Source: Halomonas sp. THAF5a (GTDB lineage: Bacteria; Pseudomonadota; Gammaproteobacteria; Pseudomonadales; Halomonadaceae). From it: a stretch of DNA of 64,000 bases. The DNA lies in NCBI RefSeq assembly GCF_009363755.1, contig NZ_CP045417.1, positions 1,674,001 through 1,738,000 on the forward strand. Direction: 5' to 3'. The position numbers and the translations under genes are program-made. Below, piece after piece: positions 10,404 through 32,655 of this stretch. The notes under the pieces are model-generated. The model was not told where the DNA came from, ran no database searches, and saw only the letters and a program-made list of their open reading frames with translations. Position 1 is the first letter of the stretch; every line of letters starts with the position of its first letter.

Positions 10404-10521
10404 TTTGTATCCCGAAGTCTGGTGAGCAGAACGACGGGACGCGAAACCCGCCAGCGGCGGGTGGTGGTGACCTTGTGTCGGCGGAAAGGGGCTTCGGGGC
10501 GATGCCAGACGACATCCTCGG

Positions 10522-10533
10522 GGCGGTAGCGTG
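10522..10533 (+). promoter_or_regulatory. RfaH ops element (JUMPstart core)
   Basis: GGCGGTAGCGTG matches the ops consensus of JUMPstart leaders and lies 25 nt upstream of the wza ATG. In enterobacteria ops pauses RNA polymerase and recruits RfaH, which then suppresses Rho termination across long capsule, LPS and secretion operons. Its place in front of the longest co-oriented stretch of this locus is what that mechanism predicts. It also argues that wza starts at 10559 and not at the in-frame upstream ATG 10475, which would put ops inside the gene. Confidence 0.75.
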
Positions 10534-10558
10534 GCCGAACATAACGGGGGATGTCGTG

Positions 10559-11731: not shown

Positions 11732-11752
11732 CCCCTGCACGAGGCCATCGTC

Positions 11753-14008: not shown

Positions 14009-14023
14009 GGGGGAGGGCGTCGA

Positions 14024-15190: not shown

Positions 15191-15193
15191 CGA

Positions 15194-17031: not shown

Positions 17032-17888
17032 TGGCCTTGAAGCTGATGATGATCACCGCCTGCCCCGAGGTGGCGGTGCTGGCCGAGCAGAACGGCGTGG
17101 CGCGCATCTTCATGGATCAGGAGGTGCTGGGCAAGGCGGCGCGTCAGGGGCACCTGGACACCCACCAGGCCTGTCACAGCCTGGCGCAGATCGCGGCGGT
17201 GGCTGGACGGCTGGAGCATGCCGAGCTGATGGTGAGGATCAATCCCCTGAATGCTCACACCGCCGATGAGGTATCGGCGGCGATTGCCCACGGTGCTCAG
17301 CGGCTCATGCTGCCCATGTTCACCACTTCCAGTGAGGTCCAGCGCTTTCAGGCGCTGGTCGCGGGCCGCGTGCCGGTGACCTACCTGGCCGAGACACCGG
17401 CGGCCCTGATTCGCCTCGCACACTGGCTGCCGCTGCTGAGGCCGGGGCACGACGAGGTGCATATCGGCCTGAACGACCTGTCGCTCGGTCTCGGCGTGGG
17501 GTTTCTCTTCGAGCCTCTGGCCGGCGGCATGATCGATGGCGAGGCCCGGATGCTCAACGAGGCGGGGGTTCGCTGGGGGGTCGGCGGGATTGGTTGCCTG
17601 TCAGGGAATCTGCTCCCCGCGGACTGGATTCTGGGCGAGCACGTGCGCCTGGGATCCCACTGGGTGATCCTGAGCCGTGCCTTCCACGGCGGGGCCGAGT
17701 CCCTGGAGGAGCTGGAGCGCAGGGTGGATCTGCCGGTGGAGATTCGGGCCCTCCGCCTGGCCGAGTCGCGCTGGCGCCGCGCCGATGAGGCGCGTCTCGA
17801 AGCCAACCATCGGCGCCTCGCGGAGAAGGTCTTCGAGATGGCCGAACCGCTGCAGGCACCCATGCAGCAAGTACCGTTGCAGCTATGA
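17028..17888 (+). CDS. HpcH/HpaI aldolase/citrate lyase-family protein
   Basis: 286 aa; ATG 17028 overlaps the preceding stop (ATGA), and ATG 17031 is an equally good start. TIM-barrel family that makes or cleaves 2-oxo acids from pyruvate/PEP-type partners with a divalent metal. Family features: RINPLN (about 67-72), AHGAQRLMLPMFTTSSEVQ (about 87-105) and VHIGLNDLSLGLG (about 144-156, the DLS-x-x-LG metal region). It sits between a phosphoglycosyltransferase and a 2-hydroxyacid dehydrogenase with 4-bp overlaps at both ends, so the two enzymes are probably translated together. Substrate unknown; synthesis of an unusual acidic building block is an inference. Confidence 0.72.
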   Translation: MMALKLMMITACPEVAVLAEQNGVARIFMDQEVLGKAARQGHLDTHQACHSLAQIAAVAGRLEHAELMVRINPLNAHTADEVSAAIAHGAQRLMLPMFTTSSEVQRFQALVAGRVPVTYLAETPAALIRLAHWLPLLRPGHDEVHIGLNDLSLGLGVGFLFEPLAGGMIDGEARMLNEAGVRWGVGGIGCLSGNLLPADWILGEHVRLGSHWVILSRAFHGGAESLEELERRVDLPVEIRALRLAESRWRRADEARLEANHRRLAEKVFEMAEPLQAPMQQVPLQL

Positions 17889-18859
17889 GGATGCCCGTTG
17901 AGACGCTGCTGGTCCTGCAGCACGAAGCGGTGCTGGCGCGCCAGCGTGAGGCGCTGCTGTCGCAGCTCGCCAAGGGATTGCCGGGGGCGCGGGTGGTGCT
18001 GGCTTCCGGCCCCGCGCAGGTGCCCGAGGGCTTGGAGGTCGATGCGGTGATCACGCCGACCCTGCCGTGGCTGCCCGAGGCCCTGTCGCGACTGTCGCGC
18101 TATGACTGGATCCATTTTTTCTCATCGGGGATCGAGGCCATCTGGGCGATGCCCTTCGACAAGCGACGGGTGCTGATGACGCGAAGCGCCGGGGTGCATG
18201 CGCCGGCCATGAGCGAATTCGCGCTGGGGGCCATGCTCTACTTCGCCAAGCGCTTCGGTGACTGGACGCGGCGGGCCGCCTCGCCTCACTGGCAGCGAGC
18301 GTGGCTGGACGAATTGACGGACGCGCGGCTGACCATCCTCGGCATGGGGCGAGTCGGGGGCCTGCTGGCCGAGCGCGCTCGGCTCTTCGGCATGCGGGTC
18401 CACGGCCTGCGTCGACGCGTCGAGGCGTCTTCGGAGGAGGGGGTGTTCCTGACGCGTTCGGTGCTCCCCGAGGTGCTGGCCGATACCGACTATCTGGTGG
18501 TCTGCCTGCCGTTGACCGATGAGACGCGCGGCCTGGTCGACCATGCTCTGCTGTCCTCGCTGCGTCCCGGAGCCGTGCTGGTCGACATCTCGCGGAGTGG
18601 GGTGGTGTGCGAATCGGCGGTGATCGACGCCCTGGAGAGCGGGCGACTCGGCGGGGCCGCCCTGGACGTGTTCGAGCGGGAGCCCCTCCCGGCGAGTTCC
18701 CTGTTGTGGGGGCGCGAGGACGTGCTGCTGACTCCGCATATCTCCGGGACCACGCCCTTCTATCTGGAACGCGCCCTGGCGCTGTTTCTCGACAATCACA
18801 GAGCGCTGGCCGCCGGCCAGCCACCGCTCACGCCGGTCGATCTCGACGCAGGCTACTGA
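17885..18859 (+). CDS. D-isomer-specific 2-hydroxyacid dehydrogenase family protein
   Basis: 324 aa. NAD(P)-dependent 2-ketoacid/2-hydroxyacid oxidoreductase. The nucleotide motif is LTILGMGRVGGLLAERA (about 150-166). Catalytic-site signatures are VVCLPLTDETRGLVD, RPGAVLVDISRSGVV (Arg), an acidic residue in VFEREPLP and a His in LLTPHISG. The last two positions match the R-E-H triad of the family. Starts in an ATGA overlap with the aldolase gene. It may reduce the 2-oxo acid that the aldolase makes, which would be an uncommon two-enzyme module within a capsule locus. Confidence 0.8.
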   Translation: MRMPVETLLVLQHEAVLARQREALLSQLAKGLPGARVVLASGPAQVPEGLEVDAVITPTLPWLPEALSRLSRYDWIHFFSSGIEAIWAMPFDKRRVLMTRSAGVHAPAMSEFALGAMLYFAKRFGDWTRRAASPHWQRAWLDELTDARLTILGMGRVGGLLAERARLFGMRVHGLRRRVEASSEEGVFLTRSVLPEVLADTDYLVVCLPLTDETRGLVDHALLSSLRPGAVLVDISRSGVVCESAVIDALESGRLGGAALDVFEREPLPASSLLWGREDVLLTPHISGTTPFYLERALALFLDNHRALAAGQPPLTPVDLDAGY

Positions 18860-18869
18860 GGAGCAACTC

Positions 18870-20849
18870 ATGCGATGGCTAGTGGCGTTGGTGATGCTGC
18901 CCCGCTGGGTAAAGCGTTGGCTGTTGCGAGTAGCAGATGGACTGCTGGTCGCCGGATGCCTGCTGTTGGCCGTGATGCTGGTGGGCGAGCGAGAAGCGCT
19001 ACTGGAGGCGAAGGGCATCCTCCTGGTGGCCGTGATGGCCTTGGCCACGATCCTGCTTCTCGAGGTCATGGGCGTCTACCGGATCGTGCTGCGCTTCATG
19101 AATCAGCACATGGCGCTGATCCTGGTCACGGGGTTGCTGATCTCGGTGGTCAGTCTGCTGGCGCTGGACCTGTTGATCGGCTCTCCGATGTCGCTTCATG
19201 TCCTGCCGCTCTTCGCCCTGCTGGTGTTGTTTGCGGTGGGGGGGCTGCGCCTGCTGCTTCGCGAACTGTATCAGTTGAGCCGCTGTCCCCAGCGTCAGCC
19301 GGTCCTGATCTACGGTGCCGGAGTGGCAGGATGCGAGCTGGCGAGGGCGCTCCAGCATGGGGGGCGGTATTGGCCCCGGGCGTTTATCGATGACTGGCGT
19401 GGGCTGCAGGGGGCGCTGGTGGAAGGACTGCCGGTGCATCACCCGGACCAGCTGGAAACCTTGATGCAGCGTCTGGACCTCGAGCTGGTGCTGCTGGCCA
19501 TCCCCAGCGCGCCCCGCTGCCGCAGGCGGGAGATCCTCGAGCGACTCGCCCGGCTGTCGGTCCCGGTGCAGACCATCCCGGGCTCGGAGGACCTGGTATC
19601 TGGGCGAGCCAGGGTCAACGACACCTGTAACGTGGCGGTGGAAGACCTGCTGGGCAGGGAACCGGTGGCGGCCTTTGCAGAACTGACGGGCGCCGACATA
19701 CGCGACAAGGTCGTCATGGTGACGGGGGCCGGAGGATCCATCGGTTCCGAACTGTGCCGCCAGATCCTGCAGCACGGCCCCTCTCTGCTGGTGCTGGTCG
19801 ACAATGGCGAATATGCCCTCTACGCCATCGAGCAGGAGCTGCAGGGCCAGGTGCGATCCGATGCCCGCCAGACCCGCGTGGAGGCGCAGCTGGTCTCCAT
19901 ACAGCACGGCGACCGGATGCGCGAGATCATGGCCGGCTTCGGCGTGCAGACGCTCTACCATGCCGCTGCCTACAAGCATGTGCCCCTCGTGGAGGCCAAT
20001 CTGGTGGAGGGGATCCGCAATAACGTCTTCGGAACCCTTGGGCTTGCGCTTGCCGCCGTGGATCAGGGCGTCGAGACCTTCGTGATGGTCTCCACCGACA
20101 AGGCCGTGCGGCCGACCAATGTGATGGGGGCCACCAAGCGATTGACCGAGCTGATCTGCCAGGCCCTGGCGGCCCGAGAGGCTTGTCCGACGCGCTTTTG
20201 CATGGTGCGTTTCGGCAATGTCCTGGGGTCCAGCGGTTCCGTGGTGCCGTTGTTCCGGCGCCAGATCGAGCGCGGTGGGCCAGTCGAGGTGACGCATCCC
20301 GAGATAACGCGCTACTTCATGACCATCCCCGAGGCGGCCCAGCTGGTGCTCCAGGCCGGCGCGATGGCCAGCGGGGGCGAGGTGTTCGTGCTGGACATGG
20401 GCGAGCCGGTCCGCATTGCCGACCTGGCGGCCAGCATGATTCGACTCTCCGGACTGGAGGTGAAGGACGATGCCCATCCCGACGGTGATATCGAGATCGT
20501 CTATACCGGCCTGAGGCCGGGCGAGAAACTCTACGAAGAGCTGCTGATCGGCGCCGATGTCCTTGCCACGCGACACCCGCGCATCATGACCTCGCGGGAG
20601 GTGTCCTGGGAGTGGTCGGCCCTGGAGAGCTTCCTGGAGGAGCTCTACGAGGCCATGACGCATTCTCGCCACCTGCGCATCATCAAGCTCCTGCACGAGG
20701 CTCCCCTCGACTATCGCCCCGGTGACCGGTTGGTCGATCCGACCTGGCAGGCTCGGCATGACCGGATCGCCGGCACGGTGGTGCCGGTGGGAAGCGAGTC
20801 AGCGGGGGCGCCGCTGGCACCGCGACTCGGGTTGCAGGCCTCCAAGTAG
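18870..20849 (+). CDS. Membrane-bound UDP-GlcNAc 4,6-dehydratase (WbpM/PglF/CapD type)
   Basis: 659 aa. Four N-terminal membrane helices (about 20-125), a CoA-binding-like Rossmann region (VLIYGAGVAGCELARALQ) and a C-terminal SDR domain with VTGAGGSIGSELC (about 284-296). The SDR active site has Met in place of the usual Tyr (TNVMGATKR, about 413-421), as in WbpM and PglF. Further conserved parts are YHAAAYKHVP and VRFGNVLGSSGSV. It makes UDP-4-keto-6-deoxy-GlcNAc, precursor of bacillosamine, QuiNAc, FucNAc and similar sugars. The aminotransferase or reductase needed for the next step is not in the window. Confidence 0.9.
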   Translation: MRWLVALVMLPRWVKRWLLRVADGLLVAGCLLLAVMLVGEREALLEAKGILLVAVMALATILLLEVMGVYRIVLRFMNQHMALILVTGLLISVVSLLALDLLIGSPMSLHVLPLFALLVLFAVGGLRLLLRELYQLSRCPQRQPVLIYGAGVAGCELARALQHGGRYWPRAFIDDWRGLQGALVEGLPVHHPDQLETLMQRLDLELVLLAIPSAPRCRRREILERLARLSVPVQTIPGSEDLVSGRARVNDTCNVAVEDLLGREPVAAFAELTGADIRDKVVMVTGAGGSIGSELCRQILQHGPSLLVLVDNGEYALYAIEQELQGQVRSDARQTRVEAQLVSIQHGDRMREIMAGFGVQTLYHAAAYKHVPLVEANLVEGIRNNVFGTLGLALAAVDQGVETFVMVSTDKAVRPTNVMGATKRLTELICQALAAREACPTRFCMVRFGNVLGSSGSVVPLFRRQIERGGPVEVTHPEITRYFMTIPEAAQLVLQAGAMASGGEVFVLDMGEPVRIADLAASMIRLSGLEVKDDAHPDGDIEIVYTGLRPGEKLYEELLIGADVLATRHPRIMTSREVSWEWSALESFLEELYEAMTHSRHLRIIKLLHEAPLDYRPGDRLVDPTWQARHDRIAGTVVPVGSESAGAPLAPRLGLQASK

Positions 20850-20893
20850 ACCTGCTGACGGCTGTTCACGAATAGTTTCCACGGGATGATGAC

Positions 20894-22693
20894 ATGTTGA
20901 AGGACCTGCGCGAGCTCTATTCGCTGCTCTCACGCCAGCAGCGCCGACGCCTGATGCTCCTCCAGGGGCTGGTGGTGCTCATGGCCTTCGCCGAGTTGGC
21001 GAGCATCGTCGCCATTGGTCCCTTCATGGCGGTCGTCGGCGACATGGGGCGACTCGAGGGCGACGGGATGCTCGCCATGGTCTTCGAACGCAGCGGGATC
21101 GAGACTCCAACGGCCTTTCTCACCCTGCTGGGCGTTCTGGTGCTCGTCGTCCTGCTGGTGTCGTCCCTCGTCTCCATCTACACCACCTGGCGGCTGTCAC
21201 TCTATAGTGCCCAGGTCGGCGCGGAGCTCGCGAGCCGGCTCTATAGCCATTACCTGCACCAGCCCTGGCTCTTTCATGCCGGCGTGAACACCAGCCGGCT
21301 GATGAACAAGGTAGCGAGGGAAGTGCAGCGCACCACCACGAGGATCCTGCACCCCCTGATGCAGCTCAATGCCAGGCTGATCACGGTGTCGGTGATCGTC
21401 ATGGCGCTCTTCATCTACGATCCTTCCGTGGCGCTCACGGGGGTGGTGCTGTTTGGCAGCGCCTACCTCCTGCTCTACAAGACGGTGCGTCGCTTTCTGG
21501 TCGCCAACGGGCGTCGCGTCTCCCGGGCCCAGGCGAGTCAGTTCAGGCTGATGAATGAGGGCTTCGGTGGGATCAAGGATCTTCTGCTGATGCACCGCCA
21601 GGGAAACTTCACCTCGCGATTCGACACTGCCAGTCACCGCGTGGCCCGAGGGCAGGGCGTCAACCAGGGGCTGAGCGATGCACCGCGTTATGCCATCGAA
21701 CTCGTGGCTTTCGGTGCCGTGATCCTGCTGGTGCTTCATTTGCTCAATCACTACCAGGGAAACCTGGGGGCGATCCTGCCGGCCCTGTCGATCTATGCCC
21801 TGGCGGGCTTCAAGTTGCTGCCGGCCTTCCAGAAGATCTATGCCTGTGTCTCTCGGATACGTGGCAATCTGGCGGCTTACGAAAGCCTCCGAGGTGATCT
21901 CCTGGCCAGTCGTGACAATCTGCCTGTCCCGGGCACCCGGGAGGGTGAGCTCGCCCCCCTGGTGCCCCAACACGCCATCGTGCTGGACAAGGTGGCTTTC
22001 GATTATCCCGGCAAGAAGGAAGCTGCCCTGAACGGCCTGTCGCTGGTCATCCCGGCCAACTCGGTGATAGGGCTGGTCGGCGCGTCCGGTAGCGGCAAGA
22101 GTACCGCCGTGGACCTGCTGCTCGGGCTGGTCGAGGCGCAGCAGGGAAACGTAATCATCGATGGTGAGCCGCTGACCCCCGATAACCTGAGGCGGTGGCA
22201 GGCGAGCGTCGGCTTCGTCCCTCAGCAGATCTTCCTCGCCGATGCGAGCATTCTCGAGAACGTCGGTTTCGGGCTTTCACGAGAACAGATCGATGAGGGG
22301 CGCGTGCGGGAAGCGCTTCGCCTGGCGCAGCTCGAGGACCTGGTGGAAAAGTTGCCCGAAGGCATCGAAACGCGTATCGGTGAGCGCGGCGTTCGCCTCT
22401 CGGGCGGTCAACGTCAGCGGATCGGTATCGCTCGGGCGCTCTACCAGCAGGCCAGCGTGCTGGTCCTGGACGAGGCCACCAGCGCTCTGGATGGCATCAC
22501 CGAGCGGCGTGTCATGAACGATATCCACCGGTTGGCAGGAGATCGAACCATCGTGCTGGTGGCCCACCGACTCACCACCGTGAAGGACTGTGACATCATC
22601 TACATGCTCGAGGCGGGCAGGGTGACCGATTCGGGTACCTATGAGGAACTGGCGAGTCGCAACACCACCTTCCAGATGATGGCCAACCTGTAG
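20894..22693 (+). CDS. ABC-type lipid-linked glycan flippase, PglK/MsbA-like
   Basis: 599 aa half-transporter with a fused permease (six helices, about 20-320) and ATPase domain. Walker A GASGSGKST (about 396-404), Q-loop VGFVPQQIFLADASI, signature LSGGQRQRIGIARAL (about 502-516), Walker B VLVLDEATSALD (about 522-533), H-loop VLVAHRLTT. It follows genes resembling Campylobacter pglF, pglC and pglA and no Wzx is present, so it probably flips the undecaprenyl-PP-linked repeat unit to the periplasm. An MsbA-like lipid A role is less likely in this setting. Confidence 0.82.
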   Translation: MLKDLRELYSLLSRQQRRRLMLLQGLVVLMAFAELASIVAIGPFMAVVGDMGRLEGDGMLAMVFERSGIETPTAFLTLLGVLVLVVLLVSSLVSIYTTWRLSLYSAQVGAELASRLYSHYLHQPWLFHAGVNTSRLMNKVAREVQRTTTRILHPLMQLNARLITVSVIVMALFIYDPSVALTGVVLFGSAYLLLYKTVRRFLVANGRRVSRAQASQFRLMNEGFGGIKDLLLMHRQGNFTSRFDTASHRVARGQGVNQGLSDAPRYAIELVAFGAVILLVLHLLNHYQGNLGAILPALSIYALAGFKLLPAFQKIYACVSRIRGNLAAYESLRGDLLASRDNLPVPGTREGELAPLVPQHAIVLDKVAFDYPGKKEAALNGLSLVIPANSVIGLVGASGSGKSTAVDLLLGLVEAQQGNVIIDGEPLTPDNLRRWQASVGFVPQQIFLADASILENVGFGLSREQIDEGRVREALRLAQLEDLVEKLPEGIETRIGERGVRLSGGQRQRIGIARALYQQASVLVLDEATSALDGITERRVMNDIHRLAGDRTIVLVAHRLTTVKDCDIIYMLEAGRVTDSGTYEELASRNTTFQMMANL

Positions 22694-22765: not shown

Positions 22766-23626
22766 ATGCTGAAGCAATGCCTTGGCAGGATGATCGGGAT
22801 ATCCGGTTATGAGCTCAGACGCCGTCCTGTGTCCGCCGTGGCGGATCTCAGGAGTGCCGAGTTCCCTTACACCCCGATGGAGGCGTTGTATGCATGCACG
22901 TCGGATCGGTTTGTCGTGGATGTTCCGGTCGACATGATCGTCCCGACACGCATGATGCTGGCCTGGATCACGGCGTTAAGAGCGTACGAGAACCGGGGCG
23001 AGGAGGCGGCCCGAACCCTTCTTCAGGAGTATTTCCGCTACCTGCAGCCCGTCAATGTCGCTCAGTACCTGAAGTTGCCGGCTCGCCAGGAGTGGCACCT
23101 GGGACCTCCACTCTCCTATGTGTATCCGTGGGAGGACATGTTGCCACAGGTCAAGATGGATTTTCGGCTCCACCTCATGCGCGATGAGGCCATTAGAAAT
23201 GGTCTTGACTGGCAGGAGTCGGATGGCTGGAAAGGGTTTGGTCCGGTCTCGGAACGCCTGATCGATATGGAGCTGGGCCGACTCACGAGGACCTACGATT
23301 CCATCAAGCGCCACGGGATAGACGAGCGACATGGCCATGTCGTTGGCACTCTCTTCTGTGCGGGGAACGTTCAGATGGTGCAGCCAAGGCGTGGATGGCA
23401 TCGAGTGGCGGTCTGTCTGGCAATCGGGTTGACATCGATTCCTGTCATGTTCGATAGACGCCACGTGGTGATCCGGCTCGAAGAGGCCGAGTCCTGGCCG
23501 AATGTCAGGCGAGGACTGTTCTCGCTGGATGAGGCCGTCAGGGTATTCGATGAACGGTTCGGCACCCACCTAAGAAGGGCGTCGAGCAACGAGTCGCCTC
23601 CCATTTCGAGCGTCATGCCAACGTGA
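22766..23626 (+). CDS. Hypothetical protein with ParB-like motif, glycan-locus associated
   Basis: 286 aa, GGGAG 6-8 nt before ATG. No signal peptide or clear membrane helix. Residues about 210-250 (GWHRVAVCLAIGLTSIPVMF followed by VIRLEEAESWPNV) resemble the HR-x-A...A-x-GL-x-S-x-PV core also seen in the product of 1301-2197. Thus the locus may carry two distantly related members of one uncharacterised family. It is the first gene of the poorly characterised cassette after the flippase. Function unknown. Confidence 0.6.
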   Translation: MLKQCLGRMIGISGYELRRRPVSAVADLRSAEFPYTPMEALYACTSDRFVVDVPVDMIVPTRMMLAWITALRAYENRGEEAARTLLQEYFRYLQPVNVAQYLKLPARQEWHLGPPLSYVYPWEDMLPQVKMDFRLHLMRDEAIRNGLDWQESDGWKGFGPVSERLIDMELGRLTRTYDSIKRHGIDERHGHVVGTLFCAGNVQMVQPRRGWHRVAVCLAIGLTSIPVMFDRRHVVIRLEEAESWPNVRRGLFSLDEAVRVFDERFGTHLRRASSNESPPISSVMPT

Positions 23627-23679
23627 ATACGATGCGCACCGGATGGTGAAGCCTGCCAATATTTGAAGAGGTTCTGGCG

Positions 23680-24957
23680 ATGAATGTTTCTTTCGAGCAT
23701 GACGTCCTTGTTCGGCAGCCGATTGACTATCAGCTTCAGGAGGTGGGCAGGGCGTCCGATGATGAGGAGTCCTCTATTCGGCTGCGACCCGATGTCGGGG
23801 AGGAGTACGCCTGTTTCGCCATCTGGGAAGGGGGAAGAGGTCGTGAGGACGATATCGTCGCTGAGCTCGGCGAGCGATTCACCATCGTGGCCGACTTCCT
23901 GATTTACTGGAGTGATCAGCACTACAGAAGAAATGTCCGTCGCCTCTACTTGCGTCCAGGAGAATCGGCAGGGAAGGGATATGACAAGAAGATCGGCAAG
24001 CCTCCCTTCCGTTTTATCATCGTGGAGGATGCGGCGCCTTCCTACACGTGGTGGAAAAGCGTATCGGGCCATATTGAGCCGACTAATCGTAATGTAGTGC
24101 GTGAAAAATACCGTTTCCGATCGTGGTTCGATGAACCCTATCAGGTGCATTCCAGTAACAATATATCCGAGTTCTATTTTCAGGCCGTGCTGGTGCTGGG
24201 GAAGCCTCTTCTCAACCAGGCACTCTCTCGGAGATCTCCCGAGACGGTGGAGCTCCATCGGGACCTGGAAGGCGCCAACGGTTGGGAGAGTTGGAAGCAG
24301 CTTTTTTCGGTGTTGAATGTCTGCAGCGACTATCTCGTGCTGAGGAAGTACGACGACCTGCCCCTGCACGCCGGTGAGGGTGATGTCGACTTCCTGTGCG
24401 GGGATATTCAGTGGCTCGCATCAGCGGCTAACGTGCACCAGAACAACGATCGGACCTACAAGGGTCACGTCGATGTGGCGGGCCAAAGAATACCGGTAGA
24501 CATCCGATTCGTTGGCGATGGATATTACAGTGCTTCGTGGGAGAAGGACGTGCTCAAGCGGAAGGTCTTTCACGACGGCAAGTACGTGCCTCGACTCGAT
24601 GATTACTTCTTTACACTCCTTTATCACTGCAAGGTCCATAAGGAATCTGTCGACAAGAGTTACGAGGATCTTCTCAAGTGTCTTGCGGATCGCATGGGGT
24701 TTGATTGGTTTGAAAGTGTCGATGTGAATGATGATGATACGATCGGAAACCTGCTGAAAGGTTATATGGTGTCGAATAGTTATTGTTATGAACGGCCGAT
24801 TGACTTTGGGGTGAAGGCAAACAAGGAGGTGATAAAGATCATCTCCAGAGTGTCCTATAATAATCGTAAACGGTCTTCTTTGGTGAGGTCTGTCAAGAAG
24901 CGTGTAAAGAAGTATGTTTCTATTGGTAGGTCGTGGCAACGTTTTTCCATGAAGTGA
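23680..24957 (+). CDS. Nucleotidyltransferase-fold protein with an extra N-terminal domain
   Basis: 425 aa. The C-terminal half (about 215-345) looks like an MNT-type nucleotidyltransferase: LVLRKYDDLP, then GEGDVDFLC (about 231-239) with the two acidic metal ligands, and VDIRFVGDGYY (about 271-281) with the third. The N-terminal half has RFIIVEDAAPSYTWWKS, NRNVVREKYRFRSW and QVHSSNNISE, a separate domain I cannot assign with confidence. The tail is basic (KRVKKYVSIGRSWQRF). The 3' third is clearly richer in A/T than the neighbours, pointing to horizontal acquisition. A nucleotidyl or phosphoglycosyl transfer in glycan decoration is inferred. Confidence 0.6.
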   Translation: MNVSFEHDVLVRQPIDYQLQEVGRASDDEESSIRLRPDVGEEYACFAIWEGGRGREDDIVAELGERFTIVADFLIYWSDQHYRRNVRRLYLRPGESAGKGYDKKIGKPPFRFIIVEDAAPSYTWWKSVSGHIEPTNRNVVREKYRFRSWFDEPYQVHSSNNISEFYFQAVLVLGKPLLNQALSRRSPETVELHRDLEGANGWESWKQLFSVLNVCSDYLVLRKYDDLPLHAGEGDVDFLCGDIQWLASAANVHQNNDRTYKGHVDVAGQRIPVDIRFVGDGYYSASWEKDVLKRKVFHDGKYVPRLDDYFFTLLYHCKVHKESVDKSYEDLLKCLADRMGFDWFESVDVNDDDTIGNLLKGYMVSNSYCYERPIDFGVKANKEVIKIISRVSYNNRKRSSLVRSVKKRVKKYVSIGRSWQRFSMK

Positions 24958-25005
24958 ATGCCCGGTGTTATGGGATTCAATGCATCGGTGTAGAGGGAGG
25001 GGGAG

Positions 25006-25494
25006 ATGGCGATATTCTCTGGTGTTGTCGTTTCCGGTAGAGAGATGGCACAACGCCATGTTTCCCTTGCCATGGATGAGTTATCCACTATTAGTGGCCA
25101 GGACCTATTTCCTGGCTCGATGAACGTGGTGCTGGACAAGCCATTGAAACTGGAGTCGCGATACTCAGCGATATTCGACCATGGAAAGCGTTTCATCTGG
25201 AGAGCCAGAATCGGGTGCCGACAGGTATGGATCTACCGGTGGAAGGGCACTCCATTCACCATCGTGGAGATCCTGGCTGACTGCCGGTTGAAAGACGCCC
25301 TTGGCCTCTTGGACGGCAGCTGTATCGATATCGAGATCGACGATGCATTGGTGGCGCCGCTGGATTGGCGAGACCGCCTGTCCTCCTTCCTGATTTGGGG
25401 GATGGGGCGGAAATATCTGTATTACTCGAAGCCATATCCTAGCAGAAGATATGTCATGCGGATCCGAAATGGGTTGGGCGATGGGCAAAGGTAA
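25006..25494 (+). CDS. DUF120-like protein (similar to archaeal CTP-dependent riboflavin kinase)
   Basis: 162 aa with a strong GGGAGGGGGAG leader. The pattern follows the RibK (DUF120) barrel: SGVVVSG (5-11), then LFPGSMNVVLDKP (34-46), matching the family's P-x-GTLN-x-x-L with Ser38 and Asn40 where Thr and Asn bind Mg2+, and TIVEILADCRLKDALGLLDG (85-104), matching its IEIIAP-x-x-LRE-x-x-x-LKDGD segment. In archaea this fold phosphorylates riboflavin with CTP. No riboflavin genes are near; its neighbours are a nucleotidyltransferase-like gene and CDP-glycerol genes. A CTP-using kinase acting on a glycan precursor is a hypothesis. The glycine-rich loop is altered (GREMA), so activity is uncertain. 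Confidence 0.6.
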   Translation: MAIFSGVVVSGREMAQRHVSLAMDELSTISGQDLFPGSMNVVLDKPLKLESRYSAIFDHGKRFIWRARIGCRQVWIYRWKGTPFTIVEILADCRLKDALGLLDGSCIDIEIDDALVAPLDWRDRLSSFLIWGMGRKYLYYSKPYPSRRYVMRIRNGLGDGQR

Positions 25495-25620
25495 CGCTCC
25501 TGGGTGTTTTCAGCGCTTGATCTGGCAGGGGCAAGCTGGATGGAAGCTGGTGTTCAGTGGAGAGCAAGTGACTGCCAGTACATGTCTTCGGCCTATCCGA
25601 GTGATCACGAGAGGCACACC

Positions 25621-26592
25621 ATGAAAAGCCCTACCATCAGTGTGATCGTTCCTGCGTATAACGTCGCCGCCTATGTTCGGGAGTCCCTGCAATCCCTGGC
25701 CGGACAGACCGTCCTCCCGGATGAGGTGATCATCATCGACGACGGGAGTCTCGATGAAACATTGGATGTGATCAAGGCGTTTCCCCATCCATACCCTGTC
25801 AGGATCCTGTCGACCGAAAATCGAGGACAGGGGCCCGCGCGCAACATGGGGATCTCCTTGTCACGTGGTGACTACGTTTACTTTTTTGATGCCGATGACA
25901 TCCTGTCGCCGGAGTTTGTGGGAGCGATGAAGGATATCGTCGAGAAGAGCGCCTTCCCGGATATCGTCTTCTTCTCCGGAGATAGCTTCCGTGACCATGT
26001 GGCCGTACCACATGCGGTGGTGGACTACCGAAGGGGGTTCAGTGGCGCCTTTCATGCTCCACTGGATCTGCTTCGGGCCTTCGATGCGGTCAAGCGGATC
26101 TCGTGCAGCCCTTGCCTGTATCTTTCGAGGCGCAGCCTGTGGGTGGAGACCCCGCTGGCGTTTATCGAGCATTACCATGAGGACGAGCATATCCTCTATC
26201 CTTTGATCCTCTCCGCCGCTTCTTACCTCGTCGCCGACGACTGCTATTTCTCGCGCCGAGTGCGACACGGCTCCACGATGATGCTGACCAAGAGTGCCCG
26301 ACACCTTCTGGGATACCGCGAGACCATCCGCTCGCTTCTCCAGCTTCATCGAGACCCGGTGGCTCCTGAGGTCAAACCGTTCATCCGCTCCCGTGCGGTG
26401 CATTTCATGAAGAAATACATCTTTCATGCCACGCGAAACGGTATCGCCATGGATGTCGGGTTCCTGGTGTCAACCATCCTGGGGTTGCGAAGTGTCGAAT
26501 TGCTCGCCTATGTGATCTATCGCGGCGGTGAGGCCCTTCCGCGAGCCATGATCCGAAGGGTCCTCGGCGCTCCTTCAGGCGTCCAGGCCTAA
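25621..26592 (+). CDS. Glycosyltransferase family 2
   Basis: 323 aa from ATG 25621 (GAGAGG upstream); the frame extends further 5' but the GT-A fold starts here with ISVIVPAYNVAAYVRESLQS. Donor-binding features are EVIIIDDGSLDET, ENRGQGPARNMGISLSRGDY and the DxD motif FFDADD (about 83-88). A His/Glu-rich EHYHEDEHIL segment lies in the acceptor half (about 182-191). Cytoplasmic inverting transferase adding a sugar to a lipid-linked intermediate. It follows the DUF120-like gene by 126 bp of non-coding sequence. Confidence 0.83.
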   Translation: MKSPTISVIVPAYNVAAYVRESLQSLAGQTVLPDEVIIIDDGSLDETLDVIKAFPHPYPVRILSTENRGQGPARNMGISLSRGDYVYFFDADDILSPEFVGAMKDIVEKSAFPDIVFFSGDSFRDHVAVPHAVVDYRRGFSGAFHAPLDLLRAFDAVKRISCSPCLYLSRRSLWVETPLAFIEHYHEDEHILYPLILSAASYLVADDCYFSRRVRHGSTMMLTKSARHLLGYRETIRSLLQLHRDPVAPEVKPFIRSRAVHFMKKYIFHATRNGIAMDVGFLVSTILGLRSVELLAYVIYRGGEALPRAMIRRVLGAPSGVQA

Positions 26593-26769
26593 GGGGTCCC
26601 CACTCGCATGACAGGCGGTGGCAACGGTGTCGCCTGACCCGGGGTGGCCCACACCATGGGGCCCAGCGGGGGGCTGGTGCTTACGAGATGGCATCCTCCT
26701 CATCTGCCTTCATGTCGCGAGTCATGCCTTGGTGCCTCGTCCTTCGCTTCCGAGTCAGGAGACACGGTC

Positions 26770-27723
26770 ATGCCGCTGTTTTCCCTTGTCATGCCCGTCT
26801 ACAACAAGGCGGCGACACTGACCTCTTCCCTGGCGTGCCTCTACGGGCAGACGTGCCGCCTCTTCGAGATCATCGCCGTCGACGACGGCTCTACCGATGG
26901 CTCGCTCGAGATCCTGCGTGATGCCGAGAGCCGGGGGGGGCTGCGGTTACTGCAGCGTCATGAACCGGGCCCTGGGGGATATGCCGCTCGCAACTACGGG
27001 GCCGAGCATGCCAGAGGCGAGTGGCTGGTGTTCTTCGATGCCGATGACCTCGTCGTGTTCGATCATCTTTCACGATTTGCCCACGCCATCAAGGCTAACC
27101 CCGGGATAGACCTGTTCGTGAACGGATACCAGAAGCTCGAGGGGGACAAGCGGCTGCCACGGGTGGGGCTGCGCTTCGAGGGGGTCATGTCGCGCCGTGA
27201 CGCCCTTAGTGCGTTCGCGCGCTGTGATTTCATCCACATGAACGGGGCGTGCCTGCGTCGTGATCGCTTCCTGAGGTTGGGAGGATTTCCCGCCGGTTGT
27301 TACCGGCGGGGAGGGGACGTCTACTTCTGGCTGAAGGCGCTGTGCGAACTCGATGCCATCCATTATGACCCCGCGGTGACCAGCCTGTGGCAGCTTCAGT
27401 ACAGCGGCGTCACGCGAAACCCTGACAACCTGCGGGCTATCCATCCGGCGGCCGGCCTGCCGGTGGAATACGCCGGGCGGCTTCGCTGGAACGAGAGGCG
27501 CCAACTGCATGCCGCGGTTAACCGCAAGGTGCTCTCCTGGGCCGTGGAGAAGAAGCGCCAGGGCCGGTCCGTGACGGCGGATCTTGGTGCCCTGAGGTGG
27601 GACGGTATGAGCCTGCGTGCCTTCTACCATCTGATCTCACTGATGTTGCCCGATACCTTCTTTACCCACATGCATCCCCCTACGCGGCGAGTCGCCTCGC
27701 AGGCGGGAAAGGAGGAGCGATGA
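26770..27723 (+). CDS. Glycosyltransferase family 2
   Basis: 317 aa from ATG 26770, with AGGAG 8 nt upstream; longer in-frame starts lack a ribosome site. GT-A fold: FSLVMPVYNKAATLTSSLAC, EIIAVDDGSTDGSLEIL, GPGGYAARNYGAEHARGEW and the metal-binding FFDADD. A probable catalytic acidic segment is RRGGDVYFWLKAL. Its stop overlaps the cytidylyltransferase start by 4 bp (ATGA), so the two are translationally coupled, placing this transferase in the glycerol-phosphate module. Confidence 0.83.
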   Translation: MPLFSLVMPVYNKAATLTSSLACLYGQTCRLFEIIAVDDGSTDGSLEILRDAESRGGLRLLQRHEPGPGGYAARNYGAEHARGEWLVFFDADDLVVFDHLSRFAHAIKANPGIDLFVNGYQKLEGDKRLPRVGLRFEGVMSRRDALSAFARCDFIHMNGACLRRDRFLRLGGFPAGCYRRGGDVYFWLKALCELDAIHYDPAVTSLWQLQYSGVTRNPDNLRAIHPAAGLPVEYAGRLRWNERRQLHAAVNRKVLSWAVEKKRQGRSVTADLGALRWDGMSLRAFYHLISLMLPDTFFTHMHPPTRRVASQAGKEER

Positions 27724-28184
27724 TGAGTCGACCAGTGATTACCTATGGCACCTTCGACATGTTTCATATCGGTCACCTGAACCTGCTGCGCCGCATCGCG
27801 GCGCTGGGCGACCGACTGATCGTGGCCGTGTCCTCGGATGAGTTCAATGCCGGTAAGGGAAAACGGACCTTGATTCCGTTCGAGCAGCGTGCCGAGATCG
27901 TGCGATCGATCCGCTTCGTCGACGAGGTCATTCCCGAGACGAGCTGGGAGCAGAAACTCGACGACGTGAAGCGCTATGGGGTGAGCACCTTTGCCATCGG
28001 TGACGATTGGCAGGGGCACTTCGACTTTCTCGCTCCGCATTGCCGGGTGGTCTACCTGCCGCGCACCGAGGGGGTGTCGACCACCGAGCTGAAGCGCTCG
28101 TTGAACCGTTTCTGCAGCGTATCCCGCGAGGATGTCCTGCATGCCTTCGATGTCCTGGAGCAGTTGCGCAAGGACTTCGGGTGA
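27720..28184 (+). CDS. tagD: Glycerol-3-phosphate cytidylyltransferase (TagD-like)
   Basis: 154 aa. It joins CTP and a small phosphate substrate, most likely sn-glycerol-3-phosphate, to give CDP-glycerol and PPi. The N-terminus has TYGTFDMFHIGHLNLLRR with the nucleotidyltransferase HIGH motif (16-19), and the C-terminal part has RTEGVSTTELKRS, matching the family's RTEGISTT-x-x-K signature. GGAGG precedes the ATG, which overlaps the upstream stop. The CDP-glycerol glycerophosphotransferase two genes downstream is the expected user of its product. Homologues acting on other polyol phosphates exist, so glycerol specificity is inferred. Confidence 0.85.
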   Translation: MMSRPVITYGTFDMFHIGHLNLLRRIAALGDRLIVAVSSDEFNAGKGKRTLIPFEQRAEIVRSIRFVDEVIPETSWEQKLDDVKRYGVSTFAIGDDWQGHFDFLAPHCRVVYLPRTEGVSTTELKRSLNRFCSVSREDVLHAFDVLEQLRKDFG

Positions 28185-28226
28185 AGAGCGTGTTCAAACC
28201 CTTCCTTCCCCTCGAGGAATCGATCG

Positions 28227-29774
28227 ATGAATGGCAGTGAACCCGCCTATCGGCCCGTGAGCAGCGACCTTCCGAGGAATGCCTACCTGATCGTGGCAGG
28301 GGGCGCGGACCAGCCCTCTGGACAGGGCCCTGACGAACGGTTCGAGCATGTCCTTTCCCTTCCCGGTGTCCAGATCTGGCACACGCTCGACGACTGTGAC
28401 GTGGTGCCGGTGCCCGGGGGCGAGGCGAGCATGATCGCCCTCGGGCACCTCTACAATCCGTTCAATGGACACCTGGGAAGAGAGGCCCTGAAGGACCTGG
28501 CGGCCAGTTGGGCGCGGGGGCTCGATGCCTTCTTCACGGCCGCCGGCGAGCTCAGCGGGCGTTTCGTGCTGCTGGTGAGCGAGGAGGGAAAGGGGCTGCG
28601 CGTCGTGCCGGATGCCTGCGCCTCCCTGCCGATCGCCTACGCCCTGGATGACAGGCAGTTGGTGCTCAGCTCCCATGCCGAGCTCATCAGGACCCGGCTG
28701 TCCCTGCCAGGAGATGCCACGGTAACGCGGCTTCTCGGGTCGCGGTTCTACCGCATGGGCATCCGGCATTGCCCCGCCGACCTGACGGAAGTCGAGGGTG
28801 TCAGGCTGCTGACCCCCAACATCAGCCTTCATCATGACGCCGGCGGTCTGGCCCTTCAGCGTTTCTATCCGACACGCGAGAGGGTCGAGCGACCCGTTGA
28901 GGAGGTCGTCGATGCCGTGGCGTCAGCCCTGGGTGCGTCCTTTGACTGCCTGGTCCGCTACCGGCGGCCCATGACCTGCGCGCTGAGTGGCGGCGTCGAC
29001 AGTCGCGTCAGTCTCGCGGCGACGGTGGGGAATCGGGAGGCGATCCGCTTCTTCACGTTCTCGGGCGATCACAAGAGGGAGCGTGACGCGGTCTGTACGC
29101 GCGCCCTCGCTGACCGGCTATCCCTGAACTTCGAGGATATCGAACTGTTACGTCCGTCCCCCGATGATGCCTTTCGGCAACGGTATCGTCGGCTTCAGGG
29201 GAAGACCCGTGCGCCGAACGCCGATACCGTGCTCTTCAGGACCCATCACTTCGGGACCTTCAAGGGGTTCGAGATACGTTCCTGCATTTCCGAGATCGCC
29301 AGAAACTTCATGAGGAGAAAATTTCATATACGCCATCTTCCGATGACGGCACATGCCATGGTGCCGCTCTACAAGCGGGTGCCCTTCATGGCGTCCTGGC
29401 ATCGCCTGATAGCCGGGGCGTTCGATGACTGGTTCCGTCGCACCGAGTTCGAGCGGGTCGAGCGGTGCGGGTACGACTGGCTGGACTTCTACTACTGGGA
29501 AGTGCGTGTCGGAACCTGGCAGTCACAGGTCCTGCAGGACTCGGACTACTACTGCAGTCCCACGGTCATCTTCAATAACAGGACACTGCTCGACATGATG
29601 CTGTCCGTGCCGGAAGTGTATCGCTCGACCGACGAGCTTCAGCGGATGATCATCGAGCGGTTGGATCCGGCCGTCATGCAGTTGCCCATGGTCAAGAACT
29701 TCGGGAGGAAGGCCGCGATACGGGAGTTCCTGGAATCCTCCTACCTGAAGGCCTATATGCCGATATTCGGCTGA
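28227..29774 (+). CDS. Asparagine synthase-like PP-loop protein
   Basis: 515 aa. The C-terminal half is an asparagine-synthase-type ATP-pyrophosphatase domain with the PP-loop ALSGGVDSRVSLAA (about 251-264), FFTFSGDHKRERDA and a C-terminal VKNFGRKAAIRE. The N-terminal half resembles the glutaminase/Ntn region (LSGRFVLLVSEEGKGLRVVP, YALDDRQLVLSSHAELI), but the protein does not begin with the catalytic Met-Cys of AsnB; the start is MNGSEP. Ammonia is therefore probably not drawn from glutamine. Adenylation of a carboxylate followed by amide formation on a glycan component is the likely chemistry. Substrate unknown. Confidence 0.7.
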   Translation: MNGSEPAYRPVSSDLPRNAYLIVAGGADQPSGQGPDERFEHVLSLPGVQIWHTLDDCDVVPVPGGEASMIALGHLYNPFNGHLGREALKDLAASWARGLDAFFTAAGELSGRFVLLVSEEGKGLRVVPDACASLPIAYALDDRQLVLSSHAELIRTRLSLPGDATVTRLLGSRFYRMGIRHCPADLTEVEGVRLLTPNISLHHDAGGLALQRFYPTRERVERPVEEVVDAVASALGASFDCLVRYRRPMTCALSGGVDSRVSLAATVGNREAIRFFTFSGDHKRERDAVCTRALADRLSLNFEDIELLRPSPDDAFRQRYRRLQGKTRAPNADTVLFRTHHFGTFKGFEIRSCISEIARNFMRRKFHIRHLPMTAHAMVPLYKRVPFMASWHRLIAGAFDDWFRRTEFERVERCGYDWLDFYYWEVRVGTWQSQVLQDSDYYCSPTVIFNNRTLLDMMLSVPEVYRSTDELQRMIIERLDPAVMQLPMVKNFGRKAAIREFLESSYLKAYMPIFG

Positions 29775-29854
29775 TGCCGCCTGGTATCCGCGGCCTCCCC
29801 CCTGTGGGGCCATGCCTGGTCCCGGACGATGCGAGCCCTGCCGAGAGTTGCCCC

Positions 29855-31066
29855 ATGAGATCCTATCTGTTGCGTCTGATGCACCAGGTCGCCTGGTTGC
29901 CCATGTGCCTGCCGGCGCTGTTATGGCCCCGTGACCCACGTCTCTGGGTCTTCGGCGCCTGGCACGGCAGGCAGTATGCCGACAACACCGGCCACCTCTA
30001 CCGCCATGTGCGGGACCATGAGCCAGCCCTGCGTGGCGTGTGGCTGACCCATGATGCCGAAGTGGTGCGCCAGGTGCGCCAGGAAGGCGGCGAAGCGGCC
30101 ATGGCTTACTCGCTGCAGGGGATCCTGTTGTCGCTGAGGGCCGGGCGGGTGCTCGTCACCCACTCGGCCGAAGACGTCAATTCCCATGCGTCTCTGGGCG
30201 CAGAGCTTGTCAACCTGACCCATGGGACACCGCTCAAGCGCATGGGGCGCGATGCACGATCTCGACGCATCGGCCACCTGACGGCCTGTTTCGATCGTTA
30301 CCTCAAGCGCCTGCTGCCCGGCAAGCGACGTGCCAATCGTGTGCTGGTCGCCTCGGCCGTGGGGCGGGAGCGGATGGCCTCGGCATACGGCCTGGACCCT
30401 GCACGGGTGATGGCCTTGGGCTATCCCCGCTGGGATGCCTTTCGCACCGATGCCAGGGCACTGCTTGCACGGCATGGCATAGAGACACGCTCCTGTGCCG
30501 GTATCCTGCTGTACGCCCCGACCGTCCGGATGCAGGGGCAGGGCGTGCTCGATCTGGCTCAGGGCGGCGCGCTGGCGGCATTGCGGTCCTGGCTGGAGCG
30601 AGAGCGTCTGCTTCTCTTGATACGCGGGCACGCCTCCTTGTGCATGCGAGGCCTCGATGAACTGATACGGGAGGGGCGCTGCATCCGAGAGGTTCCGGTG
30701 ACCCAGTTCCCGGATGTCAACGCACTGCTGCCGGCCGTCGACATGCTGATCACCGACTATTCGAGCGTGATGTATGACTACGCCTGCCTGGAGCGACCGA
30801 TCGTGCTGATGGCGCCGGATCTCGAGACCTACCTGGATCAAGACGTGGGCATCTACGGAGATTACACCGAGGACGCGCCTGGCCCTGTGATTACCCGCTG
30901 GACACAGTTGCCGGTGGCCTGGGCCGAGCTCCAGTCAGGCCTCCATGCGGACAGGCTGAAGGCCTTTGTCGATCGGCATGCGGCGCTCTACGATACCGAA
31001 GTCTGCAGCCGAGTCGTCGCGTGCCTGAACGAGCGAGATACGAGACTGGCATCTGAAGTGACCTGA
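29855..31066 (+). CDS. CDP-glycerol glycerophosphotransferase family protein (TagB/TagF-like)
   Basis: 403 aa from ATG 29855; an in-frame ATG at 29774 overlaps the previous stop, but CGAGAG about 8 nt upstream and the start of conserved sequence favour 29855. Family features: WVFGAWHGRQYADNTGHLYR, VNLTHGTPLKRMG (active-site His), LGYPRWDAFRTD, ILLYAPTVR, and LITDYSSVMYDYACLERPIV near the C-terminus. It transfers glycerol-phosphate from CDP-glycerol to a glycan, either as one decoration or a chain. A hydrophobic N-terminus (AWLPMCLPALLW) suggests membrane association. Together with TagD this makes a complete minimal glycerol-phosphate addition pathway. Confidence 0.85.
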   Translation: MRSYLLRLMHQVAWLPMCLPALLWPRDPRLWVFGAWHGRQYADNTGHLYRHVRDHEPALRGVWLTHDAEVVRQVRQEGGEAAMAYSLQGILLSLRAGRVLVTHSAEDVNSHASLGAELVNLTHGTPLKRMGRDARSRRIGHLTACFDRYLKRLLPGKRRANRVLVASAVGRERMASAYGLDPARVMALGYPRWDAFRTDARALLARHGIETRSCAGILLYAPTVRMQGQGVLDLAQGGALAALRSWLERERLLLLIRGHASLCMRGLDELIREGRCIREVPVTQFPDVNALLPAVDMLITDYSSVMYDYACLERPIVLMAPDLETYLDQDVGIYGDYTEDAPGPVITRWTQLPVAWAELQSGLHADRLKAFVDRHAALYDTEVCSRVVACLNERDTRLASEVT

Positions 31067-31070
31067 AGTG

Positions 31071-31081
31071 CCCCCCCCCCC
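31071..31081 (+). repeat. 11-bp poly-C tract
   Basis: A run of 11 consecutive C residues, 5 bp after the glycerophosphotransferase stop and about 100 bp before the ATP-grasp start. It lies outside both reading frames as called. Such tracts can change length by slipped-strand mispairing and so alter expression of a downstream gene, but a sequencing or assembly length error is also possible. Confidence 0.9.
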
Positions 31082-31179
31082 GGCTGTGCGTGGGAACGGG
31101 TGTGTCATCAGGCCGGTCGACTTCCGGGTGGTCTGGCAGCGAGCTACCAGGCGCCATGGTTTCTTTCGGGAGAATTTTC

Positions 31180-32094
31180 GTGTTGCTATCCACATATCGA
31201 AGATGGTTGGAAAAGAAACAGATGGGGCTCCTCCCGGCCTTCACACCGTCCGGCGTGTATGACTATGTCAGGATGTACCGCCTCCGCGTGAGCGACTGCA
31301 GGAGGGTGCTGGTGAAGGGGAAGACCTATGACGCCACCCTGGTGTTTCGCAACAAGCTGTACGTGAACTCGTTGCTCGCCTATTCCGGCCTGCCCGTCTG
31401 TGAAGACCTGGGGATCATCGAAGCGGGTCAGGTGCGGCGACTGGATGGGCAGGCTGTGGCATTCGCGGATCGCTTGCGGGCAGGAGGGGGAGGCCTGTTC
31501 GTCAAGCCCGTGATGGGGACTGGAGGAAGGCGGTGCGCGCTGATCCGCAGCGTGGACGACCCGAGGATATCCGATTACCTGACCTCCACCGGTCCCTACC
31601 TGTTGCAAAGACCTCTGACGCAGCACCCGGCGATGAGTGCCCTGTATCCCGGGTCGATCAATACGGTCAGGATCGTCACCGTATCGCGTGCTCAGGGTGA
31701 ACCGGTTCCGTATTGTGCCGTCCTGCGTATCGGTTGTAAGGGTTCCCTGGTCGATAACTGGACGTCGGGCGGCCTGGTGGCCAACCTCGATGTCGAGTCC
31801 GGCCGGGTGGTATCGCCCGGTTTCAGGAAGAAGCCCTTCGCCGCCATCCAGTATCATCCGGATACCGGTACCAGCATCGAAGGTTTCGAAGTGCCTCACC
31901 TGCAACGGATGGCCGAGGTGGCGACCCGGGCACACCGCCTGTTTCCTTTCGCCTCATCGCTCGGCTGGGACCTCGCCTGCGTGGACTCTGGCGCGGTGAT
32001 CCTCGAGGTGAATCACGACTGGGGAGCGAATCTCCATCGTCTCTTCGATAGGTCATTCGATCGACATTTCCTGTCTGCTGCCGTGGGGGCATGA
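31180..32094 (+). CDS. ATP-grasp protein, sugar-transfer-associated type
   Basis: 304 aa from GTG 31180, which has GGGAGAA 5 nt upstream; in-frame alternatives at 31090 and 31156 lack this. ATP-grasp features: LFVKPVMGTGGRRCALI (ATP-binding Lys and glycine loop), YLLQRPLTQHPAMSAL, INTVRIVTV, LDVESGRVV, and VILEVNHDWGANLH with the Glu and Asn metal ligands. It resembles the ATP-grasp family linked to polysaccharide clusters, thought to join a carboxylate to an amine or hydroxyl. It is the last gene of the cassette and may add an amino-acid or acyl substituent to the glycan. Confidence 0.75.
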   Translation: MLLSTYRRWLEKKQMGLLPAFTPSGVYDYVRMYRLRVSDCRRVLVKGKTYDATLVFRNKLYVNSLLAYSGLPVCEDLGIIEAGQVRRLDGQAVAFADRLRAGGGGLFVKPVMGTGGRRCALIRSVDDPRISDYLTSTGPYLLQRPLTQHPAMSALYPGSINTVRIVTVSRAQGEPVPYCAVLRIGCKGSLVDNWTSGGLVANLDVESGRVVSPGFRKKPFAAIQYHPDTGTSIEGFEVPHLQRMAEVATRAHRLFPFASSLGWDLACVDSGAVILEVNHDWGANLHRLFDRSFDRHFLSAAVGA

Positions 32095-32196: not shown

Positions 32197-32655
32197 ATGC
32201 TCGATTCAATACAGCGCTTCTTCAACGACATGATGACGGCCGGCGATCGTCCCGGTGAGCCGGCGATCTCGCTGGAGCTGGCCACGGCGGCCCTGCTCTT
32301 CGAGGTAGTGCTGGCCGACTACCGTCTCGATGACAGCGAGGTCGACCTGCTGCGTGAGCTGCTGCAGCGGCGCTTCGCGCTGGAAGACGCCGAGCTCGAG
32401 GAGCTGCTGCACCTCGCGCGCCGGGAGGCCGAATCCGCCGTGGACCACTACCGCTTCGTCAGCCTGGTCAAGGAGCACTGCGATTACGGGCAGCGCTGCG
32501 AGCTGGTGCGCATGATGTGGTCGTTGTCGCTGGCCGATGGGGAGCGGCACCACCTGGAGGAGCATCGCATCCGCCGCCTGAGCGATCTGCTGCATGTCGG
32601 CCACGCCGACTACATTCACGCCAAGCTCAGGGTTCAGGAGGAGGGCTCGCGCTGA
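32197..32655 (+). CDS. TerB-like (tellurite-resistance/DjlA N-terminal type) protein
   Basis: 152 aa, all-helical and acidic, with no signal peptide. The pattern LATAALLFEVVLADYRLDDSEVDLL followed later by RMMWSLSLADGERHHLEEHRIRRLSDLL is the duplicated acidic-loop TerB/DjlA metal-binding arrangement (segments about 28-52 and 105-132). The family is linked to envelope stress and metal binding, but this stand-alone form has no assigned role. It lies 100 bp after the polysaccharide cassette in the same direction and may be separate from it. Confidence 0.75.
   Translation: MLDSIQRFFNDMMTAGDRPGEPAISLELATAALLFEVVLADYRLDDSEVDLLRELLQRRFALEDAELEELLHLARREAESAVDHYRFVSLVKEHCDYGQRCELVRMMWSLSLADGERHHLEEHRIRRLSDLLHVGHADYIHAKLRVQEEGSR

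Follow-up and report, generated by a model that had tools for sequence, protein, structure and literature searches.

What do nine co-oriented genes behind a polysaccharide-export operon of Halomonas sp. THAF5a build, and do they form one system? The window analyzed here is a stretch of 64,000 nt of this genome (positions 1,674,001-1,738,000 of NZ_CP045417.1, within a single 3.8 Mb contig), and all coordinates below are window positions. Inspection of the open reading frames places the nine genes at 22766-32094, all intact and all on the (+) strand, and Pfam makes them the continuation of a Wza/Wzc-type operon that begins at 10475; a preliminary description of this DNA had already placed nine co-oriented genes after a Wza/Wzc export operon. 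The nine genes are two layers and not one nine-part system: an exopolysaccharide operon and a low-GC four-gene cassette. We propose, with confidence somewhat short of even, that the operon makes a Wza/Wzc-type exported polysaccharide bearing phosphoglycerol, and that the apparently imported cassette adds a second phosphoryl- or nucleotidyl-transfer step. The recurrence of this cassette hints at an undescribed way of building or decorating surface polymers.

The four-gene cassette

The cassette (22766-26592) encodes, in order, a ParB/sulfiredoxin (Srx)-like protein, a two-domain protein, a DUF120-like protein and the glycosyltransferase GT2a. The respective GC contents are 0.587, 0.513, 0.532 and 0.574, against 0.60-0.70 for the other genes of the operon, from Wza to the ATP-grasp gene. 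An identically ordered set of these four genes is found in Billgrantia antri (L004 and L048, judged to be one record) and in genome G525 (L047). In both, relatives of the other operon genes are absent from the fetched ~20 kb; in Billgrantia this includes TagD, TagF, the asparagine-synthetase (AsnB)-like gene and the ATP-grasp gene. From the GC composition and this second context we infer that the cassette was imported. Neither the combination nor a function for the recurrent unit at its center is described in the accessible portions of the open-licence literature searched, including PMC5974469, PMC11666461, PMC11766843 and PMC12419801.

The recurrent unit is centered on the two-domain protein (23680-24957, + strand), which had been described as a nucleotidyltransferase (NTase)-fold protein. 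That description holds for the C-terminal half alone (residues ~190-390, probably of Pol-beta type); the N-terminal half (~38-186, with His157) is predicted to fold like a nucleoside diphosphate kinase (NDK), and is called the NDPK-like domain here. Profile A1, the alignment of the combined NDPK-NTase protein, holds 48 of 62 proteins. Conservation was counted over 79 sequences for the NDPK-like domain and 87 for the nucleotidyltransferase. Both sets include the 48 A1 members as well as sequences closely related to each other; excluded were short fragments (three from each, mostly of the broken L021 gene), the window copy that came with the locus set and, for the 79, the L004 copy. The histidine of the NDPK-like domain is invariant (79/79), and profile alignment equates it with the NDK histidine at P 9e-4 and a probability of 23%, a P value reached only once four viral NDKs and further relatives, including the type B proteins described below, had joined the comparison. 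N136, K143 and R147 are likewise present in 79/79. Tryptophan (72) or arginine (7) stands where NDK apparently has a lysine, which we presume to serve the nucleotide site, the equivalence of positions being judged by eye. In the nucleotidyltransferase, the acidic residues D235 (80/87), D237 (84/87) and D274 (82/87) are conserved and by eye assigned as catalytic; the nearest solved folds in Foldseek include JHP933 and the Rv1045 toxin. Pfam scans of the whole protein gave nothing useful, a PDB sequence search with A1 gave no match, and no A1 relative was found in the viral contigs.

The DUF120-like protein (25006-25494, + strand) keeps its earlier family name, with PF01982 at E 2.8e-5 and 24.5 bits, 0.5 below the cut-off of 25. 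Precomputed annotation carries PF01982 on three of four proteins, the window's own among them, and the relative in L003, with neighbors in frame, scores 30.2 bits. Profile A2 matches MJ0056 at E 0.0097, as a distant relative of CTP-dependent riboflavin kinases would. A search of the genomes of 58 relatives found the protein in that of the window alone. PF01982 at E<=0.001 across 398 phylum genomes picked out a single other one and did not recover that of the window. Among the fetched loci, DUF120-like genes adjoin the NDPK-like/NTase gene in the window, L004/L048, L045, L047, L008 and L021, and in Halomonadaceae they also adjoin the ParB/Srx-like gene. The exception is L033:9761-10315, from another proteobacterium, with neither partner within the fetched 20 kb. 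In L021 the NDPK-NTase gene, upstream of the DUF120-like gene, is broken across frames (9706-10954).

The first gene of the cassette (22766-23626, + strand) has no convincing Pfam match. It is assigned as ParB/Srx-like by its predicted fold, at a low Z, and by a G-x-H-R motif (G210, H212 and R213), which we take to be the phosphate-binding motif of this superfamily; among 18 sequences the histidine and arginine are invariant and the glycine nearly so. A PDB sequence search with the corresponding profile, A5, returned nothing convincing (SbnI at E 0.4). Divergent second paralogues of this protein occur in the same clusters or genomes (L066:7819-8781 and 11118-12263; L067:5146-6174 and 9629-10606; L073:15648-16652). 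The final cassette gene, GT2a (25621-26592, + strand), is a glycosyltransferase by PF00535 (E 6e-30).

Recurrence of the set and its link to TagF

Scanning 84,980 species genomes by pattern returned 29 loci. All 29 have the nucleotidyltransferase domain and 23 the NDPK-like domain (one, L025, as a weak fragment); a DUF120-like gene is present in three (L004, L008 and L021) and a ParB/Srx-like gene in three (L004, L009 and L031). The NDPK-NTase core is thinly spread over Proteobacteria, Bacteroidota, Verrucomicrobia, Actinobacteria and Firmicutes, with the fuller set in Halomonadaceae. Elsewhere the two parts accompany a protein-kinase-like domain, neighboring or fused in several orders; in L029 the NDPK-like, kinase and nucleotidyltransferase parts are three adjacent genes. 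Protein-kinase-type domains were found in seven of nine proteins scanned (Pfam E<=0.01), four above the curated cut-off, and a PDB sequence search with the NDPK-kinase profile, A4, has kinases, matched through the kinase domain, among the matches listed. The kinase-domain proteins include five distant fusions (L011, L015, L018, L023 and L031), two of which, L011 and L015, also carry glycosyltransferase domains. Relatives of the window's operon genes, mostly GT2s, occur in 18 of the 29 loci (E<1e-5). The fusion of L015 (3-7001), in a Gemmatimonas metagenome-assembled genome (MAG), is one 2332-aa frame in which a glycosyltransferase is joined to NDPK-like, nucleotidyltransferase and kinase-like domains and to additional GT2/GT4 domains; an alphaproteobacterial MAG packs two NDPK-NTase genes into 6 kb (L016:5328-6617 and 9986-11251).

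Within the family, A1 matches 11 of 275 genomes. Four are of type A (the window's, G478, G483 and G525), matching along most of A1 and with the DUF120-like gene adjacent; in G478 the gene order of the whole operon is identical to the window's. The other seven, type B, combine nucleotidyltransferase, NDPK-like and kinase-like domains in varied fusions and show the motif NxxHS[SAT]D. A ParB/Srx-like gene stands beside the set in 4/4 type A and 5/7 type B regions (the L063 copy is stop-split), and TagD and TagF are both present in four of the seven type B regions (L061, L064, L066 and L067). Adjoining the type B nucleotidyltransferase are genes of ~340-350 aa without a Pfam match (L064:7837-8859 and L062:9489-10547).

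The set is statistically linked to TagF (PF04464), which is present in 43 of the 275 family genomes. With genomes treated as independent and kinship ignored, as in all p values here, TagF occurs in 10/11 A1-matched against 33/264 other genomes of the family (p 3e-8), and in 10/11 against 9/79 within the genus (90 genomes; p 1.6e-7). Counting four look-alike pairs of genomes, identified by eye, once each leaves 6/7 against 9/79 (p 7e-5). The same direction is seen for genomes with the NDPK-kinase (14/24 against 29/251) and with the ParB/Srx-like protein (17/31 against 26/244). Two control families in the genus gave 8/11 against 32/79 (PF04230, p 0.045) and 4/11 against 36/79 (PF13469, p 0.8). 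In four genomes (G483, G525, G010 and G032) TagF lies away from the A1-matched genes. Two of these TagF clusters, L073 and L074, hold NDPK-kinase and ParB/Srx-like genes of their own; the other two, L075 and L076, hold neither and have a TagF that is more distantly related.

The predicted glycerol-phosphate layer and neighboring genes

The remaining five genes, all on the (+) strand, begin with GT2b (26770-27723; PF00535 E 4e-27), the second of the two GT2 enzymes recognized earlier, whose relatives are present in several TagD/TagF clusters. TagD (27720-28184), a probable glycerol-3-phosphate cytidylyltransferase, lies above the PF01467 cut-off and matches TIGR01518 at E 2e-47 with 160.4 bits, 5 below the equivalog cut-off of 165.4; it is very likely a CDP-glycerol synthase. 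The starts of GT2a, GT2b and TagD were picked by similarity and start codon, the likely true ones being 25621, 26770 and 27720/27723. The TagF-like CDP-glycerol glycerophosphotransferase (29774-31066) matches PF04464 at E 5e-53, and a PDB sequence search with it finds TagF (3l7i, E 5e-24) and the capsule polymerase Cps3D (E 6e-12). Both enzymes had been named in the preliminary description, and TagD, TagF and a polysaccharide-export operon together support a CDP-glycerol pathway, as judged from sequence.

The AsnB-like ligase (28227-29774) was also called correctly as lacking its glutaminase cysteine: the protein begins Met-Asn-Gly, has the SGGVDS form of the SGGxDS ATP motif and scores 20.4 bits against the PF00733 cut-off of 21. 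The sugar-transfer-associated ATP-grasp (31090-32094) matches PF14397 (E 2e-38, 132.9 bits against a cut-off of 31.4). PDB sequence searches with these two proteins gave no match. The expectation that both travel with DUF120 did not hold up. Within the genus, the AsnB-like gene has matches in five of 90 genomes: that of the window, G478 (79%) and three distant ones (22-29% identity). PF14397 occurs in 88 of the 90, in almost all of them because of another, strongly matching copy, the window-type ATP-grasp being a second one; the family is therefore uninformative for co-occurrence and the triad is not a unit. We rejected it as one module also because the cassette occurs in the fetched Billgrantia stretch without the two ligases. 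What recurs is the NDPK-like/NTase-based unit.

Upstream (10475-22693, + strand), Pfam identifies Wza, Wzc, a GT4, a Bac_transf priming transferase, an HpcH/HpaI aldolase-like protein, a D-2-hydroxyacid dehydrogenase, a CapD/FlaA1-like dehydratase and an ABC exporter; a membrane protein for which Pfam gave no match is a possible Wzy candidate. The aldolase-like and dehydrogenase-like genes (17028-18859) recur in the TagF clusters L075 (2784-7614) and L076 (3047-8004), each from another genome, and the pair might supply a hydroxy-acid substituent. A TerB gene (32197-32655) follows the locus and also lies within ~4 kb downstream of TagF in L077, L078 and L079, where the TagF end recurs with different middles. 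This suggests that the chromosomal site is fixed and that its contents can be exchanged.

Proposed mechanism, rivals and known systems

How might the two layers work together? TagD would produce CDP-glycerol, from which the TagF-like enzyme would transfer glycerol phosphate onto the exported polysaccharide. The DUF120-like protein may phosphorylate a polyol or sugar using CTP, and the nucleotidyltransferase domain, acting like the LicD-family enzyme CpsC, may move a phospho-group from a CDP-conjugate or make that conjugate. Through its invariant histidine the fused NDPK-like domain could regenerate CTP from released CDP or pass phosphate to an acceptor. The ParB/Srx-like protein would be a nucleotide-dependent partner, and GT2a would add a sugar; in other lineages the protein-kinase-like domain would fill the kinase role. 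CDP-conjugate phosphotransfer is our best guess for the nucleotidyltransferase domain because Actinobacillus pleuropneumoniae CpsC, a LicD-family enzyme of the nucleotidyltransferase superfamily, uses CDP-glycerol alongside a PF04464 partner (accessible portions of PMC11666461). The preliminary description had placed an uncharacterized nucleotide-dependent set beside the CDP-glycerol pathway. Such a set exists and is TagF-linked in the family, but it is not the trio of DUF120, AsnB-like and ATP-grasp proteins. We think it possible, if rather doubtful, that the NDPK-like, nucleotidyltransferase, kinase-or-DUF120 and ParB/Srx-like proteins form an undescribed phosphate-relay pathway in glycan assembly, in which a phospho-histidine enzyme of NDPK fold feeds a transferase of nucleotidyltransferase fold to yield a phosphate- or nucleotide-linked substituent.

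Several observations weigh against these proposals. The Pfam NDK model matches none of the 48 members at E<=1, the comparison of the NDPK-like domain with the NDK profile reaches just the probability given above, and an earlier comparison with few NDKs, those of Halomonas alone, was not significant. The window's motif is YQVHSSNN and not NxxHGSD, which we take to be the NDK signature and which the Halomonas NDKs here also carry. For the nucleotidyltransferase, the best Foldseek match is weak (JHP933, E 0.004, TM-score 0.22/0.36, the domain not being modeled alone), and Pfam gave no LicD (PF04991) match for the window protein or the 48 members. The seven type B genomes matched A1 weakly and in the nucleotidyltransferase domain only (E 1e-6 to 2e-10), their NDPK-like domain being found afterwards. 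Ten of the 24 family genomes with the NDPK-kinase are without TagF, and a TagF relative turned up in the fetched flanks of just two of the 29 scan loci, weak in both cases, so the TagF link is one demonstrated in Halomonadaceae. Few loci support the idea that DUF120 replaces the kinase, and Billgrantia carries the two at different places. The substrates and activities of the cassette enzymes, their order of reaction and their action on a glycan are proposals.

The locus could be an ordinary CDP-glycerol exopolysaccharide cluster, in which TagD and TagF add glycerol phosphate, the AsnB-like and ATP-grasp enzymes add an amide, and the cassette is unrelated cargo in a variable locus. TagF-like polymers are established in Gram-negatives (accessible portions of PMC5974469), the exchangeable middles of L077-L079 fit cargo, and the pyruvyltransferase control (PF04230) is also weakly associated. 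We nevertheless consider this account unlikely, given the cassette-TagF link within the genus, the type B regions with both TagD and TagF, and the two distant genomes in which NDPK-NTase-kinase is fused to glycosyltransferases.

Quite improbable, in our view, is that the NDPK-like domain merely regenerates the CTP that TagD and the DUF120 kinase consume, the cassette being a CTP supply that creates no new linkage. The predicted fold, the invariant histidine and two predicted CTP users nearby would suit such a role; but an NDK (PF00334) is already present in 12/12 genomes searched, the window's included, the residues at the apparent lysine position (by eye) and the invariant N136, K143 and R147 argue otherwise, and recycling needs no nucleotidyltransferase fusion. 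A toxin or defense module lodged in polysaccharide loci is very improbable. It would draw on the JHP933 and Rv1045 folds and on the L029 and L066 kinase domains, which match the PADLOC kinase-type models PD-T4-6 and mad6 (up to E 7e-9 and 4e-5), matches that any protein kinase would give. PADLOC found no defense-system match for the three window cassette proteins tested, nor for the ParB/Srx-like protein of L066 or the NDPK-like and nucleotidyltransferase proteins of L029, no search aimed at an antitoxin being made; the relatives of operon genes in 18 of the 29 loci and the GT2/GT4 fusions also weigh against such a module.

The reading we prefer is the one of a cassette that adds a transfer step to a polysaccharide predicted to bear phosphoglycerol. 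CDP-glycerol glycans are already known in Gram-negatives; if the proposal is true, an NDPK-like-NTase cassette with ParB/Srx-like and CTP-kinase-like partners and a TagF link would represent a new enzymatic route to phosphorylated polymers of the cell surface, and NDPK-fold domains acting on glycans outside nucleotide metabolism would be surprising. The cassette also points to protein families of polysaccharide loci that have no Pfam names.

Comparison with known systems locates the difference. The lic locus comprises the LicA kinase, the LicC cytidylyltransferase and the NTase-fold transferase LicD. It too joins a kinase, nucleotide activation and an NTase-fold protein in glycan decoration; the window has another kinase family (DUF120), the NDPK-like domain and the ParB/Srx-like protein. 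The NDPK-like domain shares its predicted fold and invariant histidine with NDK (PF00334) and differs in the absent sequence-family match, the altered motif and the nucleotidyltransferase fusion. The DUF120-like protein is distantly similar to the archaeal riboflavin kinase MJ0056 (PF01982), including a GSLN/GTLN segment, but is bacterial, lies in a glycan operon and has a C-terminal extension of ~50 residues, its CTP use being putative. The ParB/Srx-like protein shares G-x-H-R, and tentatively the predicted fold, with a superfamily that includes sulfiredoxin and the serine kinases SbnI and SerK, and departs from it in a large inserted helical part, the missing Pfam match and the low Z. CpsA, CpsC and CpsD of A. 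pleuropneumoniae comprise an enzyme supplying CDP-glycerol, a transferase of the PF04464 family and another protein from the nucleotidyltransferase superfamily; the window has the PF04464 transferase and probable counterparts of the other two. As far as the accessible portions of PMC5974469 and PMC11666461 describe them, those serve ABC-transporter/Kdo-type group 2 capsules with a LicD-family CpsC, whereas the window has export genes of Wza/Wzc type, lacks a match to LicD and adds partners that are NDPK-like, ParB/Srx-like and DUF120-like.

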